A DNA stretch of 64,000 nt from Coprobacter fastidiosus (GTDB lineage: Bacteria > Bacteroidota > Bacteroidia > Bacteroidales > Coprobacteraceae), in assembly GCF_030296935.1 (NCBI RefSeq), contig NZ_AP028032.1, forward strand, positions 248,001 through 312,000. Direction: 5' to 3'. A model generated the notes under the pieces. That model saw only the letters and a list, made by a program, of their open reading frames with translations, ran no database searches and was not told the origin of the DNA. Position numbers and translations under genes: made by a program. This document shows positions 46,199 through 54,738 of the stretch, in pieces (position 1 is the first letter of the stretch; every line of letters begins with the position of its first letter).

Positions 46199-46831
46199 TC
46201 AGTTCTGATTTTCATTTGAAAGAAGATTACATACATGTGTGATGATGTATGGTTTCCATTTCGCAAGCATTTCATCATAAGTTTCATTTTCTTCGAGTAG
46301 AATATTTTGGCACATGTTTTTTGTTGAGAATGGCATTGTCAATAACGAATAAAATGTGAGAAACAGAAAGCGCATGGGTACTGTTTTGAGTTTTCCTTTT
46401 TTCATTTCATTTTGTAATCCATTTCTTATAGTATCGAAATAGTGGACAGAGTGCATTTCAGTTATAGTTTTAGAAAAGTAATCGAAATCGCGATGCATCT
46501 CTTTCATTATAAATATAGGTAGATTAGGATTGGCTTTAAATACTTCGTAGTAAGCATCTACGACTCTTCCTATACGTTCTCCGATCGGTGTGTCTTGTTG
46601 TAATATTATATCCTGAACTTTGGGTATCAAAGATTTTACAATCGATCCGAACACGGCTTGGAACATTTTATCTTTTGTCCGGAAGTAGTAATGCACTCCG
46701 GGTCGATTTATTCCTACCTTTGTCGCAATGTCGCTCATGCTGGTCTCCGCAAAACCATTTTCAATAAACAGCTCTTTGGCAGCTTCTATTATTTTTGTTT
46801 CCAAATCTTCGCTCTTTTTATTTTCAGTCAT
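46199..46831 (-). CDS. TetR family transcriptional regulator
   Basis: 210 residues. HTH: KIIEAAKELFIENGFAETSMSDIATKVGINRPGVHYYF, then a helical ligand domain. It starts 8 bp inside the end of the 1402-aa activase gene on the same strand, so the two are cotranscribed and probably translationally coupled. It may regulate that operon. Confidence 0.93.
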   Translation of the reverse strand: MTENKKSEDLETKIIEAAKELFIENGFAETSMSDIATKVGINRPGVHYYFRTKDKMFQAVFGSIVKSLIPKVQDIILQQDTPIGERIGRVVDAYYEVFKANPNLPIFIMKEMHRDFDYFSKTITEMHSVHYFDTIRNGLQNEMKKGKLKTVPMRFLFLTFYSLLTMPFSTKNMCQNILLEENETYDEMLAKWKPYIITHVCNLLSNENQN

Positions 46832-49800
46832 GATTATAGTTATTTTTTAAATTATCAATAAAAAGGAGTATTCGGTTTTTTATATTGACATCGCTGACTC
46901 CACTATCGAAATCTAAAGATAGAAAATTTATTTCTGGATATAAATCTTTTATTCGTTTTTCCATCCCTTTTGCCACGATATGGTTGGCAATACAGCCAAA
47001 AGGTTGTAGGCTTATAACATGTTTTACTCCTTGTTTGGTCATTGAGAGAATCTCTCCGGGCAGTAGCCATCCTTCTCCGAATTGAGCGCAAAGCGATATC
47101 ACTTTGCTGGCTTCTTCTGCTTTAGAGAAGATACTTTCGAATGGAGTGAAATAACGAAATTGACGACTGACGGTATTTGCTCGATCTATTTGTTTTTTTA
47201 CCCTATTGTATATCCAATGAATAACAATATCCGGCAGAATTTTTTTTGAAAGTTTATTGTTTTGATTGACTTTTGTATTTACAAAACTCTGCATAAAAAA
47301 GTCTGTCAGAAGCGGAGGAATTACTTCTATACCCTGCTCTGTCAGCCATGATGTAATGTCCTTTTGTGCAAACGGATTGAATTTCAGATAAATTTCTCCT
47401 ACTATACCTACTTTGTTCGTGTCTTTTTCTAAAACAATTTTATTGAAAGCTTGAGCTGCAGATGAAAGTAGATTCCAAATCTCATTTACACTGTTTTTTC
47501 GGATAGCTTCTATCGCTGCATTCATGTAATGGTCGAGTAGGAGAGCAGCCATTCCTTTTTCTTTTTCGCGAATAACCGATGCATAGTAAAATTTTGCCAG
47601 GCAGTCGCTGTATAGTAATGACGTAACAACAATTGGGAAAACTTTTATCCAATTGATTTTGAATCCGGGCTGGTTATTGTTTATACCCGAATTGGCTGTG
47701 ATCGATATGACCGGGACATCTTTAAATCCGGATTCTGTCAGAGCTTTTTTAATGAGAGAAATGTAATTGGATGCCCTGCATTGTCCCCCGGTTTGTGTAA
47801 TTGCAACAGCCGTATTTTGAGGGTCGTATTTCCCGGTTTTGAACGCTTTTACTATATCTCCGACAATAAGTGTAGCAGGATAACATACTTCGTTATTAGC
47901 GTATTTTAATCCCCATTCACATGATTGTGAATCACTGACAGGAAGATTATCGACATCATAACCGGCAAGTCCCATGAGCGGAGGTATTAGCGGAGAAATA
48001 AAAGGGGTGAAAAAAGGAGCTATGATTTTTCGGTATTTATCTTTTTTTCTGAATATGGGAGTTTGCATAAATGGCAACGTCTCGTTTTCCTGTGTTTTTT
48101 GCATTGAGAGCTTTAAACTCTCTATTACCGATCGTACACGTAATTTGAGTGAACCGAGATTGCTCACATCATCGATTTTCAATAGAGTCAGAGTCTTTCC
48201 ATGACGTCTTAGCAGATTGTGTGTCTCGTCAGTCAAAAAAGCATCCGGTCCGCATCCAAAAGAGGTCATTTGCATGAATTGGATGTGCTTATCCTGTTTT
48301 GCCGCCCATTTGGCAGCTTTCAAGATACGGTTGGTATAAGCCCATTGAGAAATGAAGTTTACGTCGTTTATTTCAATGTCGAGGCCTCGTACAATGTCTT
48401 CTGTTATTACATTTGCTCCCATTGCGGAGATCATATCCGAGAGCTTATGTTGAATCAGCGGATCGGTATGATACGGTCTGCCCGCAAGAAGAACTGTAAG
48501 CTTTTGCGTGTCTTTATTCTGTTCCAATATATCCCTGTTATATTTTGTTATTTCCGCCTCATATTCATTCGATGCGGCTATTGCTTTTTCAAAAGCTTTT
48601 TTGATGGTGGAGCGGGCTATGCCGAATTGCTCCAGATACGCAGTGCACTGTTTGAAGAGCAATTGCTTGTTCTTAAAGGTTATTGCTGGAGAATCTATCG
48701 GAATATTGTCATGTTGTACCCCTTTTATGACTTCGGTATATCCTGACACAATAGGACAATTATAACTGTTTTGTCCCCCGTCGAGTTTCTCATATACAAC
48801 GAAAGGCATAAAAATACGGTCGACTTTTTTAGTGATTAGATTTTTGATGTGACTATGCACCAGTTTTGCCGGGAAGCAGATATTGTCGGACATAACCTGT
48901 TTTGCACTTGCTTCATAGTCGGCAAACGTAGAAGCGTCAGAAAGTATAACATTGATATTGCAGTGTGTAAAAAGCGTATGCCAGAAAGGATATTCCTCAT
49001 ACATATTAAGACAACGGGGCATCCCGATCGTTGTTATGGGAAAGTCGATATTGACTTTACGGTCGAAGAGTAGCTCCAGCTTGCGTGTATATGCGTTAAT
49101 GCCGTGTTCGTTTTTTTGACCCTTATTTGTAAATACCTTTTCACAACGATTCCCGGAGAAATAACGGTTGCCGTTGTTAAAACGGTATACTGTGACTAAA
49201 CATTGATTTTCACATCCGTGACATTGCTGTGGGTGTGTAGTATAATCAGAACTGCCGATAAATTTTTCAAGAGATATTATATTACCCTGTTTTTGCCGGG
49301 CATAAAGGGCACAACCTATAGCTCCCATCAATTCGGGATGATTGCAACGGAATACTTCATGTCCTGTTAGTTTCTCAAAAGCATGCACTACTGAGTCGTT
49401 TTTCATGGTACCGCCTTGCACTACAATATGTTTGCCGAGTTCTTCTGTATTTTTTAAACGTAGTACTTTATAAAGGCAGTTTTTAACTACCGAATAGGAT
49501 AGTCCGGCGGCTATGTCACTTACCGTGGCTCCTTCACGTAAAGCTTGTTTTACTTTAGAATTCATGAAAACGGTACAGCGAGTGCCGAGATCATAAGGTA
49601 ATGTTGCTTCACAGGCTTTACGGGAAAATTCATCTATACTATACCCTAATGATTTTGAAAATGTTTCTATGAAAGAGCCGCATCCTGAGGAACAGGCCTC
49701 ATTTATTTCCATACGGTTTATTACACCGTCGTTGATAAATATCGCTTTCATGTCTTGCCCTCCGATATCGAGAATAAAGGATACTTTGTTTGTAATATGC

Positions 49801-51032
49801 CGGGCAGCCATGTAATGGGCAATAGTTTCTATAATACCGTAATCGAGAAGAAATGAAGCTTTTAGCAGATCTTCACCGTAGCCCGTTGAACAACTTCCGG
49901 TTATGACGATTTCTGCCTCAGCCTCTTTACATTTATCTTGAAACAATCTCAATCCGTTCTGTACCGTAGCGATCGGATTACCGTCATTGTTATGATAATA
50001 ATGAAAAACTATCTCGCCATCATTATTCAGTGCCACGATTTTTGTCGTTGTAGAGCCCGAGTCTATCCCGAGAGTTACTTCGGTTTTACCACGAGTGAGT
50101 GTTGTCTCTTTTATTTCGTGACAAGATATTCTTGATTTCCAAGATTTATAGTCTTCTTCATCTTTAAATATCGGCTCTAACCCTTTGGCGATCGTAACAG
50201 TATTATTCAGTCCTTTTTGTATATTTTCAATTAGTGAAGATAATTTGATCGCTTTATTTTTATCTGCAGAAAGGGCAGCTCCTAACGCAGGAATTAGATG
50301 GCTGTCTTGAGGTATGACAATGCCGTCATCTGTTATTTTAAGGTAGTCTTTAAATGCTTGTCGCAGTGCCGGTAAAAAAGTAAGAGGTCCGCCACAAAAT
50401 AAGACTGGTGTTTGTATATCGCATCCATGAGCCAGTGTGACAACGACCTGTACGGCTACGGCATGAAATATAGAAGCGGCAATATCATCTTTGTTCACGT
50501 TTTTTGCTATCAGATTTTGTATATCGGTTTTACTGAATACTCCACAACGTGAAGCTATCGGATAAATGTTCTTTGCCCTTATTGCCAGTTGATTCAATTC
50601 TTCAGTAGGTATTCCGAGAAGTATCGCCATTTGGTCTATAAAAGCTCCTGTTCCTCCGGCGCAATTACCGTTCATTCTCAAATCTGTCGCTTTGCCTTCG
50701 TTAAAGAATACGACTTTAGCATCTTCGCCTCCGATGTCTATCATTGATTTTACATCGGGATGGTCTTTTTGTACGACTTTAGTTGCGGCTATTACTTCTT
50801 GTATGAATGGAAATGAACATTTTTCTGATACTCCCATGCCTACCGAACCAGTAATATCAATCGTTACTTCTACATCACCGATTTGAGATTGTAGATTTTT
50901 CATAAACGATATAAGCAGATCTTTTACTTTGGCGTTATGTCGTTCGTATGCGGAAAATATGATTTTGTCATACTCGTCAAGTACGACAATCTTGGCTGTT
51001 GTAGAGCCTATATCTATACCAACCTTAATCAT
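46824..51032 (-). CDS. Double 2-hydroxyacyl-CoA dehydratase activase (BadF/HgdC ATPase) with DUF2229 and HgdB-like region
   Basis: 1402 residues. Two ASKHA ATPase modules stand in tandem (about 1-265 and 319-580). Each has the phosphate loop (GIDIGSTTAKIV; GIDSGSTTTKIV) and the two cluster cysteines: C124 in GNCAGGTGAF with C163 in SRCGVFSKTD, and NEACSSGCGSF with TRCTVFMN. A Cys cluster (HGCENQC) follows, then a DUF2229 region (GMPRCLNMYEEYPFW), and a long C-terminal part with GRPYHTDPLIQ and FGCGPDAF like the dehydratase B component. Such ATPases donate an electron at very low potential. No separate HgdA/HgdB genes are adjacent. Substrate unknown. Confidence 0.9.
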   Translation of the reverse strand: MIKVGIDIGSTTAKIVVLDEYDKIIFSAYERHNAKVKDLLISFMKNLQSQIGDVEVTIDITGSVGMGVSEKCSFPFIQEVIAATKVVQKDHPDVKSMIDIGGEDAKVVFFNEGKATDLRMNGNCAGGTGAFIDQMAILLGIPTEELNQLAIRAKNIYPIASRCGVFSKTDIQNLIAKNVNKDDIAASIFHAVAVQVVVTLAHGCDIQTPVLFCGGPLTFLPALRQAFKDYLKITDDGIVIPQDSHLIPALGAALSADKNKAIKLSSLIENIQKGLNNTVTIAKGLEPIFKDEEDYKSWKSRISCHEIKETTLTRGKTEVTLGIDSGSTTTKIVALNNDGEIVFHYYHNNDGNPIATVQNGLRLFQDKCKEAEAEIVITGSCSTGYGEDLLKASFLLDYGIIETIAHYMAARHITNKVSFILDIGGQDMKAIFINDGVINRMEINEACSSGCGSFIETFSKSLGYSIDEFSRKACEATLPYDLGTRCTVFMNSKVKQALREGATVSDIAAGLSYSVVKNCLYKVLRLKNTEELGKHIVVQGGTMKNDSVVHAFEKLTGHEVFRCNHPELMGAIGCALYARQKQGNIISLEKFIGSSDYTTHPQQCHGCENQCLVTVYRFNNGNRYFSGNRCEKVFTNKGQKNEHGINAYTRKLELLFDRKVNIDFPITTIGMPRCLNMYEEYPFWHTLFTHCNINVILSDASTFADYEASAKQVMSDNICFPAKLVHSHIKNLITKKVDRIFMPFVVYEKLDGGQNSYNCPIVSGYTEVIKGVQHDNIPIDSPAITFKNKQLLFKQCTAYLEQFGIARSTIKKAFEKAIAASNEYEAEITKYNRDILEQNKDTQKLTVLLAGRPYHTDPLIQHKLSDMISAMGANVITEDIVRGLDIEINDVNFISQWAYTNRILKAAKWAAKQDKHIQFMQMTSFGCGPDAFLTDETHNLLRRHGKTLTLLKIDDVSNLGSLKLRVRSVIESLKLSMQKTQENETLPFMQTPIFRKKDKYRKIIAPFFTPFISPLIPPLMGLAGYDVDNLPVSDSQSCEWGLKYANNEVCYPATLIVGDIVKAFKTGKYDPQNTAVAITQTGGQCRASNYISLIKKALTESGFKDVPVISITANSGINNNQPGFKINWIKVFPIVVTSLLYSDCLAKFYYASVIREKEKGMAALLLDHYMNAAIEAIRKNSVNEIWNLLSSAAQAFNKIVLEKDTNKVGIVGEIYLKFNPFAQKDITSWLTEQGIEVIPPLLTDFFMQSFVNTKVNQNNKLSKKILPDIVIHWIYNRVKKQIDRANTVSRQFRYFTPFESIFSKAEEASKVISLCAQFGEGWLLPGEILSMTKQGVKHVISLQPFGCIANHIVAKGMEKRIKDLYPEINFLSLDFDSGVSDVNIKNRILLFIDNLKNNYNHD

Positions 51033-51464: not shown

Positions 51465-51472
51465 TAATTTTG
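51465..51472 (+). promoter_or_regulatory. -7 promoter element of the CXXX-peptide operon
   Basis: TAATTTTG fits TAnnTTTG, 40 bp before the precursor start; no clear -33 partner. Confidence 0.4.
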
Positions 51473-51512: not shown

Positions 51513-52241
51513 ATGAAGATAGAAAATGATAAAATAGATGAGAAATCTTCTTTAGATAGAAGACAGTTTATTAAGAAAACATTATTTTCTATACCTATAC
51601 TTACTTCTATATCAATAACTTCATTACTTACTTCTTGTGAAAAAGATACAGAAGATTTAAGTTCTGGAGGAGGTGGAGGTCATCTCGGTTGTAATAATTC
51701 ATGTAGTTCTTCTTGTAGCGGAGATTGTTCTTCTGGTTGTGGAGGAGACTGTTCTAATATTTGTACGGCAACATGCGGCAATAATTGTACGAGTGGATGT
51801 ATTGATGCGTGTACAGCAACATGTGGTAATACTTGTTCTAATACCGGATTAAAAAGCAGTATAGAACAATTTGGTTGCGGACTTCCTCCCGGATGTAGCA
51901 GTTCTTGTAGTTCAGGATGCTCTAACGCTTGTAGTAAAGCTTGTAGTGTGGGTTGTATGGGGGCATGTAGCAGCAGTTGCGGTGGTACTTGCTCGGGGAC
52001 TTGTAGTACTCAGTGTTCGGGAAGTTGCAAAGGTTCTTCTACTTCCAGCGGCTGTAGTGGATGTTCTGCCACTTGTAGTGGGACATCAAGATCCAGCACA
52101 TGTTCTACTTGCGGGTCGGGATGTGCGAATAGTTGCATAGCAGGATGTGGTGCTTGTGGAAAAAGTTGCACTACCGGTTGTGATAATACGTGCCGTTCGG
52201 GATGCGATACTCAGTGTTCACTTAATTGTGCTTTTTATTAA
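51513..52241 (+). CDS. CXXX-repeat peptide precursor (RiPP candidate), Tat and lipoprotein signals
   Basis: 242 residues. The leader holds a twin-arginine motif (LDRRQFIKK, Arg16-Arg17), a hydrophobic stretch, and a lipobox LLTSC with Cys42, followed by an acidic EKDTED and a Gly5 hinge. From residue 59 on there are 41 cysteines, mostly in exact C-x-x-x units rich in Ser, Gly, Thr and Asn. One block has 13 Cys; a spacer (SNTGLKSSIEQFG) separates it from a second block of 28 with a few irregular gaps. The radical SAM gene starts 5 bp after the stop. This is the precursor of a thioether- or otherwise modified peptide by family logic. Confidence 0.88.
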   Translation: MKIENDKIDEKSSLDRRQFIKKTLFSIPILTSISITSLLTSCEKDTEDLSSGGGGGHLGCNNSCSSSCSGDCSSGCGGDCSNICTATCGNNCTSGCIDACTATCGNTCSNTGLKSSIEQFGCGLPPGCSSSCSSGCSNACSKACSVGCMGACSSSCGGTCSGTCSTQCSGSCKGSSTSSGCSGCSATCSGTSRSSTCSTCGSGCANSCIAGCGACGKSCTTGCDNTCRSGCDTQCSLNCAFY

Positions 52242-52246
52242 TCAGC

Positions 52247-53404
52247 ATGGTACAGGAAGAAAGCCAACGTGAATGGATAAAAGGTAATGCCCGACATATA
52301 ACTTTTATCGTAACGGAGAATTGCCAATTGCGCTGTAAGTATTGTTATATAACAGGAAAAAACAGTATTAAGAAAATGTCGTTTGACATTGCTGCTAAAT
52401 CTGTGGATATGATACTTGATATGCCGCAGTTGGTGTTTGGAAATGAGGGTGTCGTATGGGAATTTATAGGGGGAGAGCCTCTTATGGAAATCGATCTGAT
52501 CGATCGTATCTGTGATTACATCAAAATTAGAATGTTTGAAATGAATCATCCTTGGTTCAATTCTTATCGAATAAGTATATCGACTAATGGACTGTTATAT
52601 AGTTCTCCCAAAGTCCAAAAATTTATAGAGAAAAATAGCAAGCATCTGAGTATAGGTATATCTATAGATGGAAATAAAGAGAAACATGACAGTCAGCGAA
52701 TATTTCCGAACGGTGAAGGTTCTTATGAAGAAGTGTTGAGGAATGTGAAACTTTGGTTGGCGCAATTTCCTGAAGCAACGACAAAAGCTACGATTTCTCA
52801 TGATGATCTTCCGTATGTTAAAGATAGTGTTTTGCATTTATGGAGTATCGGTATAAAGTATGTGAATATGAATACCATTTTTGAGAATTGTTGGGAAGAT
52901 GGCGATGATCTTATTTTTGAGAGGCAGTTAACCGAACTTGCGGACGAAATAATAGCAAATAAGTATTATAATAATTTTTATTGTTCTCTATTTGATCGGA
53001 GTTTAAGTGAACCGGTAATAAAAGACGGTAACGATTCGAACTGGTGTGGTGCAGGTAAAATGATTGCGGTGGGATGTGATGGCGGTTTTTATCCTTGTAT
53101 TCGATTTATTGATTATTCTTTAAATAATAAACCCGGATTAAAGATCGGGGATTGTAAAACGGGTATTGATAAAAATCTGTTACGGCCGTTTGAAACATTA
53201 CGAAAATCGACGCAAAGTAGTATGGAGTGTATGGACTGCGAAGATAGCAATGGATGCGCTTGGTGTCAGGGAGCTAATTATGATTTTGCTGATTCGGACA
53301 CAATTTTTCAGCGAGCTACTTATATTTGTAAAATGCATAAGGCTCGTGTCCGGGCTAATAAATACTTTTGGAATAAACTGGACAGAATTGAAAATGGAAA
53401 ATAG
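52247..53404 (+). CDS. Radical SAM/SPASM peptide maturase, CXXX-repeat type
   Basis: 385 residues from ATG 52247 (5 bp after the precursor stop; an ORF start at 52226 would overlap it). The radical SAM cluster triad CX3CX2C is Cys26, Cys30, Cys33 in TENCQLRCKYCY. GGEPL follows at the SAM-binding strand. The C-terminal SPASM region holds many Cys (NWCGAGK, GCDGGFYPC, ECMDCEDSNGCAWC, ICKMH) fitting two auxiliary Fe-S clusters. By family it modifies the Cys-rich product of the gene just upstream, probably forming thioether bonds; the chemistry is not proven. Confidence 0.9.
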   Translation: MVQEESQREWIKGNARHITFIVTENCQLRCKYCYITGKNSIKKMSFDIAAKSVDMILDMPQLVFGNEGVVWEFIGGEPLMEIDLIDRICDYIKIRMFEMNHPWFNSYRISISTNGLLYSSPKVQKFIEKNSKHLSIGISIDGNKEKHDSQRIFPNGEGSYEEVLRNVKLWLAQFPEATTKATISHDDLPYVKDSVLHLWSIGIKYVNMNTIFENCWEDGDDLIFERQLTELADEIIANKYYNNFYCSLFDRSLSEPVIKDGNDSNWCGAGKMIAVGCDGGFYPCIRFIDYSLNNKPGLKIGDCKTGIDKNLLRPFETLRKSTQSSMECMDCEDSNGCAWCQGANYDFADSDTIFQRATYICKMHKARVRANKYFWNKLDRIENGK

Positions 53405-54371
53405 TAAGTTGGAATCTGTCGTTATTGTTACAGACGATATTGCTCCGTCTTTTTGTTATTACGATAGCAAAACAAAAATGACCGGATTGATGCCGATTGA
53501 CGTATTGAAAGATAGTATAAATTTTTGTGAAAGGGGAGGCTATGCGGCAACGGTCTTGTATAGTGCCAGAATATCGGAGGAACATCTAAAACTTTTGGAT
53601 GGTTTTGCTCATATAAAAGTGCTGGATATAGATACTCTGAAGTTTTGTTTACCAGATCCGGAAAATGATATTATAATTGTCGAATTAGGAAAATTTCAAA
53701 ATTTAGACACTCTTCAAGGTAAGAAATATAATATTATTTTGAGAATGGACCTTGAAGAAGCTAAGCAGTTGCCAATGCTTATATATCAGTATCACCATTA
53801 TTTTCGAAGGTTGAATGTTCTTTTTAAAAATGTTGGATCGGCAACGGAATCGGCTTTAAATCAGTTCAGGATAGATATAGAGCCGTTAAAAAATGTTATA
53901 TACGATTTGTTAGTATCGGGCAATGCATTTGAGTTTAATATGGTAACCGATAGGATGGTTTTAGATAGCGTAAATTCTTGTGATGCGGGGATAAAACATC
54001 TAACGATAGCTCCGAATGGTTGTTTTTATGTTTGTCCGGCATTTTATTATGAAGATGAGGATCATGCAGTCGGTTCTTTAAATACAGGTATCAATATACC
54101 TAATAGTCATTTATTGACAATACAATATTCTGCTTTGTGCCGTATTTGTGACTCATATCAATGTAGAAGATGTGTATTTTTGAATAAGAAGATGACACAT
54201 GAAGTCAATACTCCTTCTCATCAACAATGTGTATTGAGCCATCATGAACGGAATTTGTCTGGTATTTTATTGCAGAAGCTGCAAAGCAAGCATTTTTTCA
54301 GTCATATAAAAAATATACCGCCACTATATTATTTAGACCCGTTAGATTATTATCAAGATATAGTAAAATGA
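53394..54371 (+). CDS. Second CXXX-repeat maturation protein with SPASM-like C-terminus
   Basis: 325 residues from ATG 53394, overlapping the end of the radical SAM gene by 11 bp (an upstream extension to 53166 would lie wholly inside that gene). There is no N-terminal CX3CX2C triad. The C-terminal third has a SPASM/twitch-like Cys set: SCDAGIKHLTIAPNGCFYVC, then LCRICDSYQCRRC and QQCVLSHH. This fits the second maturase of CXXX-repeat systems. It may bind precursor or carry clusters rather than cleave SAM. Confidence 0.8.
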   Translation: MENSKLESVVIVTDDIAPSFCYYDSKTKMTGLMPIDVLKDSINFCERGGYAATVLYSARISEEHLKLLDGFAHIKVLDIDTLKFCLPDPENDIIIVELGKFQNLDTLQGKKYNIILRMDLEEAKQLPMLIYQYHHYFRRLNVLFKNVGSATESALNQFRIDIEPLKNVIYDLLVSGNAFEFNMVTDRMVLDSVNSCDAGIKHLTIAPNGCFYVCPAFYYEDEDHAVGSLNTGINIPNSHLLTIQYSALCRICDSYQCRRCVFLNKKMTHEVNTPSHQQCVLSHHERNLSGILLQKLQSKHFFSHIKNIPPLYYLDPLDYYQDIVK

Positions 54372-54394
54372 ATAATGTAATAAAAAGATAGAAA

Positions 54395-54670
54395 ATGGAA
54401 AGAAAGTTAATAGGTTCTGTGTCGGAGCAAGAAAGAGATGAGATTAGAACATTATTTGAAAGAAAAAATGGTCTTAATGAGTTATTTAAAGTTCTTGATG
54501 CGGAAAATGAGGCATTATATAATAAGTTGGTAGCAGATATGAGTATAACGGCAACCAAGTTTCAATCATGGTGGGATGAGAAAGCTCAGAAGTATCAATG
54601 GGACTCTTTGCCGGATCATAGGTGGGAAATAGATTTTGATACTTGTGAAATTTTCTTGGTTAAACGTTAG
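54395..54670 (+). CDS. CXXX-repeat peptide modification system small protein
   Basis: 91 residues, highly charged, helical at the start (SVSEQERDEIRTLFERKNGL), then a WWDEKAQKYQW segment and a beta-like end. No signal or membrane helix, only one Cys. Its place as the last gene of the cassette, 23 bp after the second maturase, fits the small accessory family of CXXX-repeat systems. A peptide-binding partner role is inferred. Confidence 0.75.
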   Translation: MERKLIGSVSEQERDEIRTLFERKNGLNELFKVLDAENEALYNKLVADMSITATKFQSWWDEKAQKYQWDSLPDHRWEIDFDTCEIFLVKR

Positions 54671-54692: not shown

Positions 54693-54738
54693 GAACAACA
54701 AAGAAATATAAATTCATTTTCTTTGTTGTTCATTTTTA
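54693..54738. terminator. Terminator closing the CXXX-peptide operon
   Basis: Perfect 14-bp arms GAACAACAAAGAAA (54693-54706) and TTTCTTTGTTGTTC (54718-54731), T-rich after; between convergent genes. Confidence 0.85.

Follow-up and report, generated by a model that had tools for sequence, protein, structure and literature searches.

The window (the whole stretch of 64,000 nucleotides analysed here, from Coprobacter fastidiosus) holds a cassette of four tightly packed genes on its forward strand, spaced in order by a 5-bp gap, an 11-bp overlap and a 23-bp gap. These genes, their spacing and the single terminator closing them had been recognised in a preliminary description of the sequence; the coordinates and gaps hold, and the terminator is confirmed by folding. 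The features are given below by position in the window.

51465..51472, + strand: TAATTTTG, a weak match resembling the Bacteroidota -7 element TANNTTTG, 40 bp 5' of the precursor ATG
51513..52241, + strand: CXXX-repeat precursor, 242 aa with 42 Cys; TIGR04117 match below cut-off (22.2 vs 50 bits)
51549..51641, + strand: predicted Tat signal peptide (SLDRRQFIKKTLFSIPILTSISITSLLTSC) ending in the lipobox LLTSC and followed by EKDTED, read from the sequence and the consensus of homologues
51690..52235, + strand: CXXX array of 41 Cys, interrupted by a linker near residues 108-127
52247..53404, + strand: radical SAM/SPASM maturase, 385 aa; TIGR04115, 567.1 bits (cut-off 350)
53394..54371, + strand: SPASM-only partner, 325 aa, with a radical-SAM-like fold but no CX3CX2C; TIGR04119, 215.7 bits (cut-off 150)
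54395..54670, + strand: modification-system protein of 91 aa with a predicted beta-alpha-alpha-beta-beta fold (AF2 pLDDT 95); TIGR04116, 88.6 bits (cut-off 50)
about 54693..54731, no strand assigned: terminator hairpin with a perfect 14-bp stem (-17 kcal/mol, z -6.8), probably bidirectional

A simple scan for short-loop terminators missed this hairpin because its loop exceeds 8, and U-rich flanks on both sides make it probable that the terminator is shared with the convergent gene. The -7-like match before the precursor is by itself no evidence of a promoter, since 10 such matches occur in 4 kb where 5.4 are expected. Upstream, the cassette is flanked by the gene for a 1402-aa protein on the reverse strand (46824-51032), named by eye only as of 2-hydroxyacyl-CoA dehydratase activator (BcrAD/BadFG) type, for which tblastn in congeners returned no matches within their short flanks. 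Of five genomes of the genus examined, two carry the cassette; in the three congeners lacking it, a rarA-like gene (also named by eye) lies in the stretch after LptF, which makes the cassette accessory within the genus.

Each of the three maturation proteins exceeds its curated NCBIfam cut-off, so that the gene set corresponds to the named CXXX-repeat system and the assignment made in the preliminary description is borne out. The precursor falls below its own model, and it nevertheless provides the adjacent Cys-X-X-X-repeat protein of such a system, with 33 of its 41 Cys-Cys intervals being exactly 4. Judged by sequence, the cassette as a gene set is of an already known kind. The earlier count of 41 Cys is also correct, the 42 of the precursor being these plus the Cys of the lipobox. 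In 5000 shuffles of the mature part, 8.0 +/- 2.3 C-x3-C pairs were expected and at most 16 obtained, against the 33 present. Whether such precursors always occur apart from a radical SAM gene, a circumstance that had been named as speaking against the proposal, can be addressed for one genome: that of the window has no clear CXXX array other than the one next to the radical SAM gene. Among relatives the arrays range from 7 to 74 Cys, and at four related loci four or five different CXXX precursors surround a single maturase set.

The N-terminus of the precursor carries a feature that was absent from the preliminary description. After a short stretch comes SLDRRQFIKKTLFSIPILTSISITSLLTSC-EKDTED, in which a twin-arginine signal (DRRQFIKK) leads to a Bacteroidota lipobox (LLTSC); the Tat motif S/T-R-R-x-F-L-K before a hydrophobic stretch appears here as DRRQFIK, with D for S and I for L. 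We compared 80 loci encoding relatives of the maturase, which are either of a split type, with maturase and partner as separate genes, or of a fused type, with both in one chain. The RR motif occurs in 96 of 100 split-type precursor-like ORFs vs none of seven fused-type precursors, and in none of 892 other ORFs at these loci. The split-type leader consensus is E-L-Q-S-R-R-E-F-F-K-K-A-A-K, with Phe at 95% in both Phe positions (the residue directly after S-R-R being given also as x), and conservation extends to E-L-Q before S-RR, to AAK and to a Pro at about +13. Because these flanking residues lie outside the Tat consensus, the maturases may recognise the leader as well.

A lipobox-like motif precedes the array in 36 of 95 related precursors, the remainder resembling signal peptidase I types. 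The surface export signal of Bacteroidota lipoproteins is C-X-K-(D/E)2-X after the lipidated Cys (PMC5080379); the window precursor has C-E-K-D-T-E-D, with the K and one acid in place and Thr at +5. The lipobox motif supports lipidation at LLTSC, and the product would be located probably at the outer membrane and possibly at the surface. The earlier proposal of a surface peptide thus receives partial support from the signal peptide and lipobox, while Tat seems a likelier route than Sec and agreement with the surface-export motif is only partial.

Genes for the translocon itself accompany many of these cassettes. Among the split-type genome-contig loci with enough downstream sequence, tatC lies 3' of TIGR04116 in 42 of 62, usually after a gap of about 150-250 bp in which a simple motif search found a TatA ORF in at least 26 of the 48 loci looked at; Pfam TatA_B_E and TatC were confirmed on two loci. 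An independent set of 392 genomes of the window's order included 10 with TIGR04116 above cut-off, in seven of which tatC adjoins the cassette. The mere presence of TatC is uninformative as evidence, being found in 329 of the 392, and it is adjacency that informs; a second TatC is enriched in cassette carriers (5/10 vs 16/382, Fisher p=6e-5). No tatAC adjoins the window cassette. In its genome a single tatAC operon lies at 2.99 Mb, while the cassette is at 0.30 Mb (TatC 2987970-2988698, with a TatA ORF just upstream), and among split genomes without adjacent tatC, 16 of 19 have tatC elsewhere. The three split genomes with no TatC match comprise one whose precursor lacks an RR leader, one apparently mis-binned contig and one RR precursor in a MAG. 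Linkage to tatAC is patchy on the maturase tree, where supported branches force at least eight gains or losses, and the window and its congener stand apart on a long branch, so that the lack of tatAC there may reflect the ancestral state or a later loss. When lipobox precursors were checked for a pairing with non-adjacent tatC, the counts showed no clear pattern (21/42 vs 11/19 loci).

In Bacillota members, and in one genome of the window's order, maturase and partner are fused into about 700 residues and RR is absent; ABC transporter and protease genes lie near these fused-type loci (with Pfam confirmation on one of them). That CXXX targets appear to be exported in two ways speaks for the N-terminal part being an export element that differs according to lineage. 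Two Bacillota-binned contigs bear cassettes that fall inside the Bacteroidota clade and are probably mis-binned. MT837480.1, deposited as an unverified bacteriophage from human faeces, holds a complete cassette in the order Tat precursor, radical SAM gene, partner, TIGR04116, TatA, TatC (named by eye, from close similarity); as it is really a six-gene cassette of Bacteroidales type, it was not counted as a viral maturase match.

The Tat exporter moves folded proteins and RiPPs are normally exported via ABC transporters; we know of no natural RiPP that has been shown to use Tat. The tatA-tatC pairs inside relatives' operons make Tat export of a RiPP directly testable. It was once suggested that Tat would give modifying enzymes time on lanthipeptides, and that group's preliminary attempts failed (PMC5686179). 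Searches of the literature for CXXX-repeat, for TIGR04117/TIGR04119 and for Tat together with RiPP returned nothing on this system, although Tat may have been mentioned before in connection with it. The combination of a Tat signal with linked tatAC, of which we found no description, shifts the model from a secreted peptide to a folded, probably anchored protein.

The maturase has what a ranthipeptide or sactipeptide enzyme of the radical SAM/SPASM type needs: the CX3CX2C described earlier as intact is so (CQLRCKYC at residue 26), and auxiliary-cluster Cys are provided by seven SPASM Cys (267, 284, 328, 331, 337, 340 and 361), invariant in A1. Its second-best model is PapB (185 bits vs a cut-off of 340), and the nearest solved structure is CteB (5wgg, E 6e-33). 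The adjoining gene had rightly been called a second SPASM-like protein, with seven SPASM Cys conserved in 60 aligned homologues. The N-terminal part lacks CX3CX2C in all 74 TIGR04119 proteins, profile comparison aligns the partner to the C-terminal half of the maturase, and its predicted fold (pLDDT 92) best matches CteB (TM 0.66). By this prediction the partner is a pseudoenzyme of radical-SAM-like fold whose only clusters are the auxiliary ones, a natural separation of those clusters from the SAM cluster that should be useful for the question of auxiliary-cluster function. For the predicted structure of TIGR04116, no PDB entry matched at E<=0.001. Two genomes of another family encode the partner and TIGR04116 as one fused protein of 510 aa.

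The nearest characterised enzymes, PapB and CteB, are both thioether formers, and by analogy the array may be thioether cross-linked; we found no characterised product of the CXXX-repeat family. PapB forms a thioether from Cys on a repeated, CX3-spaced target (PMC9413430), and its auxiliary cluster binds the substrate thiol, with an electron that leaves intermolecularly after each turn and must return (PMC10470005). The cassette has no PapA-type CX3D/E target, a Cys following CX3 in 33 units, and the maturase lies below the PapB cut-off. The exact reaction of PapB cannot simply be copied here, because in its i to i+4 geometry the link would land on the following Cys. Across the arrays of relatives of the split type, X2 is Gly in 36% and X3 is Ser, Thr or Gly in 70%, a composition compatible with links to X3 or X2.

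We consider it probable that the product of the cassette is a cysteine-repeat protein that is cross-linked many times, exported through Tat and anchored by a lipid. The precursor would stay in the cytoplasm while TIGR04115, helped by the TIGR04119 partner and by the small protein TIGR04116, modifies the CXXX units in succession, most likely joining each Cys as a thioether to a carbon of a nearby residue. As it keeps two auxiliary Fe-S sites and lacks the motif that binds and cleaves SAM, the partner is probably a non-catalytic helper that keeps hold of substrate thiols or passes on the electron set free with each cross-link; given the precedent of PapB, a separate SPASM protein may be suited to such a task over a long array. 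The folded product would then leave through the Tat translocon by way of its RR signal, using the single distant tatAC operon in the window genome and the dedicated tatA-tatC pair in many relatives, and would be anchored by signal peptidase II and lipidation at the lipobox Cys. Because Tat moves folded proteins, the finished molecule is probably shipped already cross-linked, and modification before export would explain how arrays with as many as 74 Cys are tolerated. Against this model speak the absence of adjacent tatAC, the D for S before RR and the partial surface-export motif in the window, and beyond it the conserved residues around RR, the three split genomes with no TatC match and, for the bond type, the i+4 position taken by a Cys.

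The same RR region can be taken as mainly a RiPP leader for the maturases, with the precursor exiting by Sec as an ordinary lipoprotein. The conservation of E-L-Q, AAK and the Pro beyond the Tat consensus suits this, as does the window locus without its own tatAC; the frequent tatC behind the cassette, the ABC exporters and proteases that appear instead near RR-less Bacillota relatives, and the difficulty of threading a cross-linked array through Sec make it quite improbable. A less remote, still unlikely alternative is that the array is not cross-linked and belongs to a protein rich in thiols that binds metal or acts in redox reactions, with some other change, e.g. on Cys, being made by the radical SAM pair. 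Tat is also a normal route for proteins whose metal is inserted in the cytoplasm, which favours this alternative together with the 41 Cys and their mostly small and neutral neighbours, but the nearest enzymes with known products form thioethers, and both SPASM domains are intact, which fits thiol handling.

As for function, sactibiotics are made by the same common enzyme superfamily and the Bacillota versions do lie beside ABC transporters and proteases, so a diffusible cross-linked bacteriocin comes to mind. We regard it as very improbable for the window, where the precursor has a lipobox and no protease, dedicated exporter or immunity gene was found between the genes flanking the cassette; the spread of array lengths among relatives also counts against it. 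A passive structural, protective or metal-binding role at the surface would fit the anchored, cross-linked protein better than would a released toxin.

Further homologues of the maturase occur in other settings. On seventeen IMG/VR contigs, radical SAM homologues lie beside proteins of 200-940 aa with CXXX arrays and a non-Tat N-terminal domain; in those contigs that were checked they lie in phage tail modules with baseplate wedge, tail fibre and endolysin neighbours, and the arrays match phrog_6085, while TIGR04119 is absent from the contigs and TIGR04116 is present in few only. Their sequences suggest a branch of radical-SAM-modified phage tail proteins. Four loci of Candidatus Termititenax/Margulisiibacteriota encode proteins (638-667 aa) whose CXXX arrays hold 112-122 Cys, adjoining a distant maturase (33-34% identity) and without partner or Tat signal. 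It is tempting to speculate, somewhat short of an even chance, that CXXX-repeat proteins are a natural class of radical-SAM RiPPs, cross-linked and then exported folded through Tat by a dedicated translocon, that serve as long-lived structural polymers (lipid-anchored in the envelope here, tail parts in phages) and not as secreted antibiotics.

Comparison with known systems shows where the cassette agrees with and departs from each. With PapB/PapA (the ranthipeptide freyrasin) it shares the second-best maturase model, a repeated CX3-spaced target and Cys thioether chemistry, the last presumed here; it differs in that the PapB acceptor is Asp/Glu in CX3D while position i+4 is the next Cys, and the portions of the PapB reports drawn on mention neither a SPASM-only partner nor TIGR04116. 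CteB, the SCIFF maturase (5wgg/5why), is nearest to the maturase in structure and to the partner in fold, but is a complete radical SAM enzyme, whereas the partner lacks the SAM-cluster motif. The NCBIfam CXXX-repeat system is matched in TIGR04115, TIGR04116, TIGR04119 and an adjoining CXXX target; the precursor scores below the cut-off of its target model TIGR04117, and the Tat signal, lipobox and linked tatAC are absent from those of its model names and descriptions that were consulted. Finally, the Tat-exported lipoproteins of Bacteroidota share RR-x-F-h-K, the hydrophobic stretch and the lipobox, and differ in that the cargo here is predicted to be a radical-SAM-modified repeat protein, for which the cassettes of relatives hold their own tatAC.
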